Origin: Anseongella ginsenosidimutans
Lineage (GTDB): Bacteria > Bacteroidota > Bacteroidia > Sphingobacteriales > Sphingobacteriaceae
DNA length: 64,000 nt
Reading direction: 5' to 3'
Assembly: GCF_008033235.1 (NCBI RefSeq)
Contig: NZ_CP042432.1
Span: forward strand, 1,364,001-1,428,000
A program made the translations under genes and the position numbers. Positions within the stretch are counted from its first letter, which is position 1. Each line of letters starts with the position of its first letter. Under the pieces are notes generated by a model. That model was not told where the DNA came from. It did not search any database and was given only the letters and a program-made list of their open reading frames with translations. This document shows positions 49,656-54,680 of this stretch, piece by piece.

Positions 49656-52052
49656 TTATTCCGACTTCAATGACTTAACCGGATTCATCAATGCCGCTTT
49701 TACCGACTGAAGGCTTACAGTGATTAAGGCGACAGCTACAGCCAGCAGGGCGGCCAGGGTAAGCATCCACCACCTGATCTCGATCCGGTAGGCAAAACCT
49801 TCGAGCCAGCGGTTCATTACAAACCAGGCCACCGGGGTACCTATCACGATGGCGATCAGCACCAGCTTGATGAAGTCCCGGGACAATAAGGCTGCTATCC
49901 CTCCTACTGAGGCTCCCAACACTTTGCGGATGCCTATTTCCTTCACACGCTGCCGGGTAGCAAAGGTCGCAAGGCCAAACAGGCCCAGGCAGGCGATAAG
50001 AACAGCCAGTATGGTAAATGCCAGGGACAGCTGTTCCTGCTTTTGCTCAGCGCCGTACTGCCTGGCGAAATTCTGGTCCAGGAAATTGTAACTAAACGGA
50101 TTGGTACTGTCAAATCTTTTATAGACCGCTTCCAGGTACGCCAGCGCTTCCGCAGTTTTACCTGTATTGATTTTCACGTAGACATTATCTCCCATCGAAG
50201 GCATAGGTGGCACTACCATCACCATTGGCTCCACTTTATGTTGCAGGGAATACGTGTGGAAATCGTTCACCACTCCAATCACGGTACGTTCACGCATTGT
50301 CCCCTGGGCATCTACGGAGAAACGCAGTCTTTTTCCGACCGGGTTTTTCCAGCCCAGCTTTTTTACCAGTGTCTCATTGACCAGGGCGGCTCCGTATTTA
50401 TCCGCAGGCGAGGCTGCGGCGAAGTTGCGTCCCGCGATCAGCCTGATTTCCATGGTAGGAAGATAATCCTCATCGATCATTAATTCCTGACAGATCGCCG
50501 AACCGTTCGAAAAGCTGCCGTCTTCATTTTCAAACCAGTAACTCATGCCCCCGATGTTGTTATTGCCAATCGGATTACCGGCTACAGCGACACCCCGTAT
50601 CAATGCGTTTCGTTGTAATGCTGCCTTAATGGCTGCTGTCTGTTCCCGGACTTCCTGATCGTGGATATGAAAAGTGAGTACCTGGTCTTTGTTGAAACCA
50701 AGGTCTTTACCGGAAGCGTATTGCAGCTGCCGGTAAATGACCAGGGAGCCGGCAATCATGACCATCGTCACTACAAACTGGAACACGACCAGCGACTGCC
50801 GGAACAACACGCGCGAAGACTGTTTACCTGATTGGCCTCTTAAGGCCGGTATTGTTTTAAAGCGGGAAAGAAAGAACGCCGGGTAACTGCCGCTTGCCAA
50901 CCCAATAACGATGCCAAGGGCGCCCGCAGCCAGCAGGGCAGGCCAATGGCCAAAGCGCCAGATGCCCAGGTCCTTGCCGGACAGCTCATTAAAGAATGGC
51001 AATAAAAGAAGCACCAAAAAAATGGCGACGACGGCGGCCAGGAAGGTTTGCAGCACAGCTTCTGTCATAAACATACCTGCAAGGTGCTTGTTGGATGAAC
51101 CGACGACCTTACGCACGCCTACTTCCCGGATGCGGACCGTGGCGCGGGCCGTTGACAGGTTTACGTAGTTAATAACGGCGATCAGTAAGATCAGCAAGGC
51201 GATGGCGGCGAAAATATAGACGCGGCTAATGCTGCCATTGGAGCCGGTCTCAAAAGCCAGGTTAGAATACAGATGAATAGCAGTAAGAGGCTGCAACTCC
51301 ATTTTATAGTCATCAATCTGCATCATCTTCTGAATGCTCTTCGCGGCAAAAGCAGGAAGCTTTTGCTCCAGTTGCCTGTAATCGGTGCCCTTTTTCAGCA
51401 GCAGGTAGGTATACACATTAAACTGCTGCCATCCGCCGGTGTAATTTTCAGGCAATGATCGCAGCGCGCTGAAATGCAAATGTGTATTGCCAGGGACATC
51501 CCTGATGACGCCCGTGACCGTATTGGGATAATTATTTTCGAAATAGACGGTCTGATTGATTGCCATTTGCGGGCTGGAAAACAGCTTGCTGGCCAGGCTT
51601 TCCGTAATGACAATGGATTCAGGAGAAGCCAGCGCCGTAGCCGGATCACCGATAACGAACGGATACGTAAACACGGAAAATATACTCTTGTCGGCAAAAA
51701 AGATGTCATCGGCTATGACTGTTTTGCTGCCATTACGAATAACGCCTCCCCCCTCCGTCAGGATGCGGGCCGCTTCTTCTATTTCAGGAAACTCCGCCTG
51801 TAAAGCCGGTGCAAAAGGCGCCGAAGTAGTCGCCTGGTGAAGGTCGTTATTATTCCACCGGGCATGCTGGGTCACGCGCACAATGCGATCGGCGTTTTCA
51901 TGGAAACGGTCATAACTCGACTCATCTCCCACGTACAGGGCAATCAGGAGAAAGCTCATAAGACCAATCGCCAATCCCGAAATGTTGATCAGCGAAAAGA
52001 CCTTGCTTTTCCACAGGTGCCGCCAGGCGATTTTAAAATAATTTTTCAGCAT
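49656..52052 (-). CDS. FtsX/MacB-like ABC transporter permease (copy 1)
   Basis: A 798-residue membrane protein with the MacB/FtsX layout: one N-terminal helix (KVFSLINISGLAIGLMSFLLIALYVGDE), a large periplasmic MacB-PCD-like domain, three helices, a second periplasmic domain (SYWFENEDGSFSNG...), and three terminal helices. Signature parts include LSTARATVRIREVGVRKVVGSSNKHLAGMF, and ATFATRQRVKEIGIRKVLGASVGGIAALLSRDF with LQSVKAALMNPVKSLKSE at the end. Such doubled-domain permeases of Bacteroidota move lipids, peptides or antimicrobials across the inner membrane or do mechanotransmission. The ATG at 52052 fits the MLKNYFKIAWRHL start better than the upstream GTG. No ATPase gene is in view. It follows copy 2 by 59 bp and is probably co-transcribed with it. 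Confidence 0.9.
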   Translation of the reverse strand: MLKNYFKIAWRHLWKSKVFSLINISGLAIGLMSFLLIALYVGDESSYDRFHENADRIVRVTQHARWNNNDLHQATTSAPFAPALQAEFPEIEEAARILTEGGGVIRNGSKTVIADDIFFADKSIFSVFTYPFVIGDPATALASPESIVITESLASKLFSSPQMAINQTVYFENNYPNTVTGVIRDVPGNTHLHFSALRSLPENYTGGWQQFNVYTYLLLKKGTDYRQLEQKLPAFAAKSIQKMMQIDDYKMELQPLTAIHLYSNLAFETGSNGSISRVYIFAAIALLILLIAVINYVNLSTARATVRIREVGVRKVVGSSNKHLAGMFMTEAVLQTFLAAVVAIFLVLLLLPFFNELSGKDLGIWRFGHWPALLAAGALGIVIGLASGSYPAFFLSRFKTIPALRGQSGKQSSRVLFRQSLVVFQFVVTMVMIAGSLVIYRQLQYASGKDLGFNKDQVLTFHIHDQEVREQTAAIKAALQRNALIRGVAVAGNPIGNNNIGGMSYWFENEDGSFSNGSAICQELMIDEDYLPTMEIRLIAGRNFAAASPADKYGAALVNETLVKKLGWKNPVGKRLRFSVDAQGTMRERTVIGVVNDFHTYSLQHKVEPMVMVVPPMPSMGDNVYVKINTGKTAEALAYLEAVYKRFDSTNPFSYNFLDQNFARQYGAEQKQEQLSLAFTILAVLIACLGLFGLATFATRQRVKEIGIRKVLGASVGGIAALLSRDFIKLVLIAIVIGTPVAWFVMNRWLEGFAYRIEIRWWMLTLAALLAVAVALITVSLQSVKAALMNPVKSLKSE

Positions 52053-52111
52053 TATATGTGACACTTTAGCTTACGGATCCGGACGAGTCATCACGGCGGA
52101 CACACAATCAC

Positions 52112-54487
52112 TTATTCCGATTTCAGTGACTTAACCGGGTTCATTAACGCAGCTTTGACCGACTGAAAACTCACCGTTAGCAAGGCGACTGCCACGGCCA
52201 GCAAGCCGGCCAGGGCGAACATCCACCATTCAATGTCTATTCTGTAGGCAAAATCTTCCAGCCAGCGGCTCATCGCAAACCATGCAACAGGTATGGCGAT
52301 GACGATAGAAACAGTAACCAACAAGACGGAGCCTTTTGCCAGCAGCTGTACGACGCTGCCAACGCTTGCTCCAAGCACCTTACGGATGCCGATTTCCTTC
52401 ACGCGCTGGCGTACGGTATAGGTGGAAAGGCCTAACAAGCCGAGGCAGGAGATAAAAATGGCGATGCCTGCAAAACTGTTAAACAGCAGGCCGGCCCGGC
52501 GGTCGGAAATATACCTTGCCTCAAATTGCTTATCGAGGAAGCTGTAGCTGAAAGGAATATCTCCGGCGTACTTTTTATATTGCTGTTCAACCGCGGTAAT
52601 AGCTTGTTGCGCGTCCTGGGCGGTAGTCCGCACATACAGGACGTTGCCAGGCCACCACCTGAAGAACAGCAGGGGGGCGATTTCTTCCTTGAGAGATTTA
52701 TAATTGAAATCCCCGACTACTCCGATAATGGTTCCTTTCCGGCCGTGAAAACGGATGGTTTGGCCGGCATAAGGTGGTTTCAGGCCCATTTTCTTCACCG
52801 CCGCTTCGTTGATAATGTACAAGTTGCTGTCAGCCGGCGTTCCGGTGAAATTGCGTCCTTCCAGCAGTTCCATCTTCATGGTTGGTATGAAATCCTCATC
52901 GATTACCGCCTGTGTGATCATGGATTGGCTGCCCTCCGGCTTGCCGGCCCATTCAAGATCGCTGCTGGCTGATTCGTGGTTGGCAATATCGTAAATATCG
53001 GTAAGCGACACGTTGATAATGCCGTGCTGGCCCGTCAGTTCATTTTTTAGCGCATCTATATGCCCGGCTACGGTGTTGGGCAGCGGCACACTGAATACAT
53101 AGCTTTTATCGTACCCCAGGTCCATCTTCCGGACATAATTCAGTTGACGGCCGATAACCAGTGTCGCCACGACCAGCACGATGGAGATGGAAAACTGGAA
53201 GACGACCAGCGCTTTTCGGAACAGATCGTTGCCTATGCCTGAAGCAACTTTTCCTTTCAGCGCCCTGAGCGGATGGAAATCCGAGAGCAGGAGCGCCGGG
53301 TAGATGGAGGCGGCCAGCAAGGTGCCCAGGGCGGCATAGCCGATCGTCTTCCAAATGCTGGCATCGGTCAACGAAAGCTGAAGGGTTTTCCCGGTGATGA
53401 GATTATAAGCCGGCAAGAGCGCGAAGGCAAGCCCAATGGCCGCAAGGAGAGCCAAGCTGAACAGCATGGCGGTTTCCAAAACGAACTGGAAAAACAGCTG
53501 TTTCCTGCCAGCCCCGATGATCTTACGGATGCTGACCTCCCGTGCCCTGGTCAGCGCCCGGGCAGTAGAAAGGTTGACGTAATTGACGGCCGCGATGGCT
53601 AGTATCAATATGGCGACGATGAGAAAAATCCGCACCATTTTAGCAGCTGCGTCATTGCCGTCGGGGCTCACCAAATGCATGTCCGCCAGCGCTTGTAACC
53701 CAAAGCGCGTGCTGCTGTCGCCATCCCGGGCTTCCGTATGCAAGGTGGTGAAATCCCGGCCGGTAATGCCAGGGTCCGCTCCTTCATGCAATTTGACATA
53801 AGTTTTGAATACGTAGTTGCCCATGTCTTCATCGATGGTTTTCCAATCGCCGTTGCCACCCCTGGCAGTGAACAGCTGGGCGTAGGACCCCATTGGGAAG
53901 ACCGCATCGAACTGCATAGAAGAGTTGTCAGGAAAATCGTGCAGAATGCCCGTAATCGTAAAATTATCCCCCCTGAATTGCAACCCCTCGCCCAGCACGT
54001 CATCGTCACCGAATAGTCTATTTGCCGTGGACCGGGTAATTACGACACTGTTGTTGTTCGGAAGCGGACGCGCATCGTGGCCCTGCAGAAATTCAAAATC
54101 AAACAGCGTAAAAAAGGAACTGTCCACATAGGCGGTATGAAAGCCGTCCATGATCTTGCTGCGGTCAGCATTGGCCAATACCTGGTCAACCTCGTCGTTG
54201 ATACGAACAAGCGACGCAACCGAAGGTATGGACCGGGAAAGGACCGAAAGCGGGCCAGGCATCCCGTCCCACACCATTTCCTCGCCGTTAGCTTCAAAAT
54301 GCGCCAGCACCCGGTAAATACGGGAATAGCCCGAATGGAAGCGGTCATAGCTTTTTTCATGCTGTACCCAAAGCAGCAGCAAAATGGCCGTAGCCAATCC
54401 ACAGGCTAATCCACTAATATTGATGATACTGTAGAACTTACTGCCTTTGAGGCTCCGCCACGCAGTTTTAAAATAATTCTTGATCAT
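52112..54487 (-). CDS. FtsX/MacB-like ABC transporter permease (copy 2)
   Basis: A 791-residue paralogue of the neighbouring permease with the same topology (MIKNYFKTAWRSLKGSKFYSIINISGLACGLATAILLLLW start; LSTARALTRAREVSIRKIIGAGRKQLFFQFVLET; STYTVRQRVKEIGIRKVLGASVGSVVQLL; terminal SVKAALMNPVKSLKSE). The two differ mainly in the periplasmic domains, as expected for different ligands or partners. It is the first gene of the pair and has a sigma-54-type promoter 90 bp before the start codon. Bacteroidota permeases of this type are often controlled by a sigma-54-dependent NtrC-like regulator and sensor kinase, none of which are in this window. Confidence 0.9.
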   Translation of the reverse strand: MIKNYFKTAWRSLKGSKFYSIINISGLACGLATAILLLLWVQHEKSYDRFHSGYSRIYRVLAHFEANGEEMVWDGMPGPLSVLSRSIPSVASLVRINDEVDQVLANADRSKIMDGFHTAYVDSSFFTLFDFEFLQGHDARPLPNNNSVVITRSTANRLFGDDDVLGEGLQFRGDNFTITGILHDFPDNSSMQFDAVFPMGSYAQLFTARGGNGDWKTIDEDMGNYVFKTYVKLHEGADPGITGRDFTTLHTEARDGDSSTRFGLQALADMHLVSPDGNDAAAKMVRIFLIVAILILAIAAVNYVNLSTARALTRAREVSIRKIIGAGRKQLFFQFVLETAMLFSLALLAAIGLAFALLPAYNLITGKTLQLSLTDASIWKTIGYAALGTLLAASIYPALLLSDFHPLRALKGKVASGIGNDLFRKALVVFQFSISIVLVVATLVIGRQLNYVRKMDLGYDKSYVFSVPLPNTVAGHIDALKNELTGQHGIINVSLTDIYDIANHESASSDLEWAGKPEGSQSMITQAVIDEDFIPTMKMELLEGRNFTGTPADSNLYIINEAAVKKMGLKPPYAGQTIRFHGRKGTIIGVVGDFNYKSLKEEIAPLLFFRWWPGNVLYVRTTAQDAQQAITAVEQQYKKYAGDIPFSYSFLDKQFEARYISDRRAGLLFNSFAGIAIFISCLGLLGLSTYTVRQRVKEIGIRKVLGASVGSVVQLLAKGSVLLVTVSIVIAIPVAWFAMSRWLEDFAYRIDIEWWMFALAGLLAVAVALLTVSFQSVKAALMNPVKSLKSE

Positions 54488-54576: not shown

Positions 54577-54591
54577 GCAAGAAGGCTGCCA
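54577..54591 (-). promoter_or_regulatory. sigma-54 (-24/-12) promoter of the permease pair
   Basis: Minus-strand TGGCAG-CCTTC-TTGC: GG and GC are at the spacing required for RpoN (-24 TGGCAC, N5, -12 TTGC). It lies about 90 bp before the ATG at 54487. A dyad of activator sites stands upstream (54646-54680). The conserved GG/GC core matches; one base (G for C) differs in the -24 hexamer. Confidence 0.72.
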
Positions 54592-54645
54592 TTAAACAAA
54601 AGGCCTTTTTTTGAGGTTCACGGCATGTTTTAAATTTTCCAGCGG

Positions 54646-54680
54646 TGTTCAGATACGAACACCGTGTCCGAAAATGAACA
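54646..54680 (-). promoter_or_regulatory. two tandem dyad activator sites upstream of the sigma-54 promoter
   Basis: TGTTC-N6-GAACA at 54646-54661 (the central part of a perfect 8-bp inverted repeat, CGGTGTTC/GAACACCG) and TGTCC-N6-GAACA at 54665-54680. Centres are 19 bp apart, roughly two helical turns, and 55-90 bp upstream of the -24 box, as expected for an NtrC-family enhancer. A self-complementary AAAAGGCCTTTT (54598-54609) lies between. Confidence 0.65.

Follow-up and report, generated by a model that had tools for sequence, protein, structure and literature searches.

Results

Permease pair and its control region

The window analysed here, i.e., the whole 64-kb stretch of DNA at G000:C1:1364001-1428000 of a 4.32-Mb single-contig genome, contains two minus-strand genes for large permeases and, in front of them, a compact control region (Table 1). 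Both permeases contain two stretches each of the MacB_PCD (PF12704) and FtsX (PF02687) domains. The second gene starts 59 bp past the stop codon of the first, on the same strand, and is likely co-transcribed with it, which agrees with the permease pair named in the preliminary description of this DNA. Its ATG lies at 52052, the GTG at 52064 being only the mechanical start of the open reading frame. Both proteins match the ADOP family (TIGR03434) over their full length with E about 1e-91, but their scores of 308.9 and 307.3 bits are half of the family cut-off of 622.3 bits.

Table 1. Features of the control region, its target genes and other module-bearing units (window positions unless marked as genome positions)
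Feature	Position	Strand	Remarks
First target gene	52112..54487	-	791-aa permease; two MacB_PCD and two FtsX domains, without ATPase domain
Second target gene	49656..52052	-	798-aa permease of the same family
Putative sigma-54 (-24/-12) promoter TGGCAGCCTTCTTGC	54577..54591	-	fits the TGGCAG-N2-TTCTTGC consensus of the 14 modules of the genome
Proximal dyad, putative activator site	54643..54664	-	core 54646-54661 = TGTTCGTATCTGAACA; 62 bp between its centre and the T of TGGCA
Distal dyad TGTTCATTTTCGGACA, putative activator site	54665..54680	-	19 bp from the proximal dyad
Module-bearing operon, MacA-type adaptor and MacB/LolD-type ATPase	genome 2415994 onward
Module-bearing operon, ATPase-TolC-adaptor	genome 2440533 onward
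Module-bearing DUF4097/LiaG-like gene with pentapeptide-repeat gene (L157)	genome 2420268-2422086

Read on the minus strand toward the permease, the region consists of the distal dyad TGTTCATTTTCGGACA, the proximal dyad CGGTGTTCGTATCTGAACACCG, 51 bp of intervening DNA, the promoter element TGGCAGCCTTCTTGC, and another 89 bp up to the ATG at 54487. The distance from GG to GC in TGGCAGCCTTCTTGC is 10 bp, which is the exact spacing of a -24/-12 promoter. The proximal dyad, TGTTC-N6-GAACA, extends to 8-bp perfect arms (CGGTGTTC/GAACACCG); the distal one is TGTCC-N6-GAACA, and the two are 19 bp apart from start to start, both 16-bp dyads lying 55-90 bp upstream of TGGCAGCCTTCTTGC. All coordinates of the preliminary description, which had placed TGGCAG-N5-TTGC 90 bp before the permease ATG and the two dyads upstream of it, hold.

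Taken separately, neither the promoter match nor the dyad beats chance strongly within the 64-kb window. The promoter pattern is found twice (about 0.95 expected), one of the two matches being intragenic, and the strict dyad once (about 0.17 expected), with the looser dyad beside it. No strict sigma-54 site was detected toward the divergent phosphoesterase gene (55049+), and the sister modules described below have their sigma-54 site on the permease side; control of the phosphoesterase gene by this region was rejected for these reasons.

Recurrence of the module in the genome

Over the whole genome, pairs of TGTYCN6GRACA within 30 bp of each other occur at six places, compared to none for the reversed control pattern, and five of the six are located directly upstream of MacB/FtsX (MacB_PCD) permease genes. 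When mismatches are allowed, the full module of dyad pair and downstream promoter element is found at 14 places with near-constant geometry, including all 11 transcription units of the ~800-aa MacB_PCD/FtsX permeases; this is the outcome of the search that the preliminary description had proposed, for the paired dyad near other TGGCAN-N5-TTGC sites and FtsX/MacB operons. The module also precedes two operons for export partners and a LiaG-like gene (Table 1). The centres of the two dyads are separated by 19-23 bp in each of the 14 modules, and 57-62 bp lie between the centre of the proximal dyad and the T of TGGCA. Dinucleotide-preserving shuffles of the DNA downstream of the dyads placed an equally good promoter-like site at 57-62 bp in 0.1 loci on average and in at most 2. 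Given this genome-wide recurrence (six pairs against none, and 14 modules whose geometry is fixed in comparison with the shuffles), we rejected the possibility that the region in the window is a chance match.

The 28 aligned dyad sites of the 14 modules yield the consensus TGTYCG-N4-CGRACA and the promoters yield TGGCAG-N2-TTCTTGC, with TGG at -24 and TTG at -12 kept in the aligned copies. The dyad as originally worded, TGTTC-N6-GAACA, is thus present in the window but is not the consensus of the regulon. Likewise, the module does precede the permease pair, as had been proposed, but it is not specific to the pair, which has one of 14 genome copies. Single dyads with one mismatch are barely commoner than those of the reversed control (57 compared to 43), and for this reason lone dyads were left out of the target counts.

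Three of these loci deserve separate mention. The LiaG-like gene at 2420268 has its promoter 193 bp before the ATG; no other non-export target was found in this genome. A perfect dyad pair (G000:C1:4096049-4096084, L073) adjoins a gene for a TIG/NHL-repeat lipoprotein; neither a permease nor a sigma-54-like element was seen downstream of the pair, which is perhaps a remnant left after a rearrangement. At G000:C1:2700412-2703515 (L078) the module is followed by an apparent truncated permease remnant and then by an intact permease, an arrangement that suggests recombination between permease copies.

Candidate regulator

The genome encodes RpoN (PF04552 at G000:C1:3773440-3773916, E 2e-55) and four true sigma-54 activators, namely the product of the gene at 2414499-2415848 and those at 561650-, 616887+ and 1242343-. 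The first is a 449-aa protein with a receiver domain (PF00072), an AAA+ domain (PF00158) and a Fis-type HTH (PF02954). Its GAFTGA loop reads GAFTDA, a variant listed among those expected to keep activity and compatible with activation (PMC4641369); T-D-A is found in 90 of 93 members of its class. The gene shares an overlap with the beginning of a histidine kinase gene. The adaptor/ATPase genes run divergently from it, and the stretch between contains a dyad pair; in the stretches examined no dyad pair was found at the promoters of the other three activators. By its score, the protein falls far below every NCBIfam equivalog cut-off among those listed.

The activator of the module is most likely this NtrC-type protein. 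The link between regulator and site is one of association, through gene context, co-occurrence and clade, from which we infer binding. The response regulator that the preliminary description had predicted to be encoded elsewhere has a plausible candidate, whose own locus carries the same dyad pair. The reading of the region as RpoN/NtrC-type is supported by the promoter geometry, the tandem dyads at a fixed distance, the presence of rpoN and the module at all other permease units.

Regulator and dyad pairs across the phylum

Similarities of the permeases and the regulator indicate that the organism belongs to Bacteroidota. Of 395 genomes from the phylum, 15 have strict dyad pairs and one has a match of the control pattern. 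Orthologues of the candidate regulator (E <= 1e-118) are found in 103 of the 395 genomes and in 13 of the 15 with strict pairs (Fisher p about 1e-6 for the co-occurrence, or 3e-6 without the genome of the window). There are two exceptions: in G287 the pair lies inside a reading frame and is probably a chance match, and G429 has a regulator of 42% identity that belongs to a sister clade. As in the genome of the window, the pair lies directly between the regulator gene and the divergent adaptor gene in six pair-bearing genomes. The relative G004 has an operon, with a dyad pair in front, that encodes a permease sharing 66% identity with the first permease of the window. Many genomes have the regulator without a strict dyad pair, so the dyad site is subject to drift or loss.

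At least seven modules are present in the relative G015; no orthologue of the candidate regulator was found in its assembly of about 120 contigs. Given this fragmentation an assembly gap is a possible reason, or else another activator may have taken over. One permease cluster of this genome (G015:C115:71788-95328; L148, L149) contains five modules in 25 kb. In G004 and G015 the promoter element is more degenerate, but the spacing is retained, with TGG kept at 60-62 in most cases.

Module and regulators across GTDB genomes

A full-module scan of GTDB genomes yielded at least 119 stretches, in Bacteroidota, Beta- and Alphaproteobacteria, Aminicenantes and others. Among the matches listed, BLASTP finds a homologue of the regulator or of the exporter parts within at most 8 kb at 57 of 80 loci examined, and some of the remaining loci have MacB_PCD genes by Pfam. 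In a tree of the activators, the module-locus regulators of Bacteroidota, Pseudomonadota and Aminicenantes form one clade, apart from the other three activators of the genome; the SH-aLRT support is 99 for the main regulator clade (37 rows) and 90 with the sister group added, both values being approximate because a quick tree method was used.

These data bear on the possibility that the promoter and the dyads are real but the activator is the protein at 561650-, 616887+ or 1242343-, or else a second regulator that shares the DNA specificity. The genome does have four true activators to choose from, and G015 keeps the modules with no orthologue of the candidate found there. On the other hand, the 2414499-2415848 regulator is, in the stretches examined, the only one in this genome with the dyad pair at its own locus, and among the matches listed the activator is of the candidate's class at 22 of the 23 module loci that have an activator gene within range. 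Another genome of the genus, G001, carries one or more orthologues of the other activators and neither the candidate regulator nor dyad pairs. We consider a different activator improbable.

Spacing between the dyads and the promoter

Among the matches listed, the distance between the proximal dyad and the promoter falls into three classes, 46-54 (47 cases), 58-63 (30) and 68-74 (10), and none of the 87 distances is 55-57 or 64-67. A test of the spacings against a uniform null is only indicative, since related species inflate the counts. The classes are about 11 bp, or one helical turn, apart, which suggests that activator and polymerase have to be placed on matching faces of the helix.

With the dyads bound by a repressor or an unrelated factor, the TGGCA-N6-TTGC match would be fortuitous and a housekeeping promoter would transcribe the genes. 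Such an explanation could appeal to each element alone being near chance level in the 64-kb window, but it conflicts with the spacing, which is fixed in 14 of 14 modules compared to the shuffles and falls into three phased classes across bacteria; the dyads are tied to the promoter element for that reason, and we regard this explanation as very improbable. Finally, the dyads are almost certainly neither chance inverted repeats nor RNA hairpins (terminator, attenuator): the 8-bp perfect arms of the proximal dyad could form a hairpin, but no T run follows the dyads, their position upstream of the promoter makes them absent from its transcript, and the fact that they recur across the genome with unchanging geometry but different middle bases already contradicts such an origin.

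In Porphyromonas gulae (L230:5650-7999) one shared dyad pair has a sigma-54-like site on each side; it is located between genes that are TolC-like and HlyD-like by inspection, near genes resembling PorP/K/L/M. The module precedes non-export genes for Lumazine_bd_2-like proteins in Sphingobacterium (L236, L286) and for PCMT-like methyltransferases in Pseudomonadota (L245, L247).

Discussion

We propose, with a probability of roughly 0.85, that the region represents one of the target promoters in a sigma-54 regulon, where an NtrC-type regulator bound to tandem dyads drives permeases and their export partners. Every step of the mechanism that follows is modelled on what is established for NtrC-type activators. 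A signal would act through the histidine kinase beside the candidate regulator and lead to its phosphorylation. The phosphorylated regulator would occupy the tandem dyads (TGTYCG-N4-CGRACA) as two dimers, side by side on the same face of the DNA, and oligomerise, and its ATP hydrolysis would open the sigma-54 polymerase poised about 60 bp away at TGGCAG-N5-TTGC. The window permease pair would in this way be turned on along with the ten remaining ADOP/MacB-like permease units scattered over the genome, the operon of MacA-type adaptor and MacB/LolD-type ATPase, the operon of ATPase, TolC and adaptor, and the LiaG-like gene. Permeases without an ATPase of their own would have one supplied, i.e., the ATPases may be shared.

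The purpose is likely a coordinated envelope export or defence response. Because the targets include a LiaG-like gene and MacA/MacB/TolC-type partners, our best guess is a response to envelope stress or to antimicrobial compounds; the stress or ligand induction of the permeases named in the preliminary description is a conjecture of the same kind.

The system has much in common with the NtrC/ZraR/AtoC class of sigma-54 systems, namely the -24/-12 element, the upstream tandem dyads and a regulator of receiver-AAA+-Fis HTH architecture adjoining a histidine kinase, and the closest solved relatives of the candidate are NtrC-family proteins and ZraR. It differs from that class in its targets, which are dispersed FtsX/MacB permeases with MacA/MacB/TolC-type partners, and in a site-to-promoter spacing that is nearly fixed and phased. 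GlrR/QseF of Enterobacteriaceae recognizes TGTC-N10-GACA sites before glmY and acts with sigma-54 in envelope homeostasis (PMC8745638, PMC6075780). TGTC/GACA half-sites, several sites per promoter, sigma-54 and envelope-related targets are shared with that system (PMC8745638, PMC6075780), but the half-sites described here are 8 bp apart (TGTC-N8-GACA) rather than 10, the candidate scores 315 bits against the GlrR cut-off of 763, and the targets are export permeases. The window permeases also resemble DarB of the darobactin exporter, and the partner adaptor and ATPase are most like DarC and DarD, with all scores below the respective curated cut-offs for DarB, DarC and DarD. The hypothesis of Francke et al. 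(2011) that sigma-54 controls the bacterial exterior (PMC3162934) fits the regulon. The words Bacteroidetes, ABC and macrolide did not turn up in a word search of that paper, and the regulon is not described there (PMC3162934). Our literature search, which covered open-licence papers and is not proof of absence, found no account of it either.

Since the module recurs at eleven permease units and their partners, and in several phyla with a matching regulator, it marks an envelope-export regulon, apparently an undescribed one. More tentatively, a single two-component system may govern a multi-phylum regulon of many dispersed ATPase-less permeases and of the ATPase, adaptor and outer-membrane channel that they share, in which the permeases would be exchangeable parts of a single envelope exporter and new copies would join through the fixed promoter module that they bring along.

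Genomes of this kind contain many copies of ADOP/MacB-like permeases. A shared promoter module with an assigned candidate regulator provides a testable handle on all such permeases at once and links them to a candidate set of ATPase, adaptor and channel. It makes target prediction from sequence alone possible in several phyla, and its constrained, phased spacing constitutes a natural data set on the placement of activator sites relative to sigma-54 promoters.
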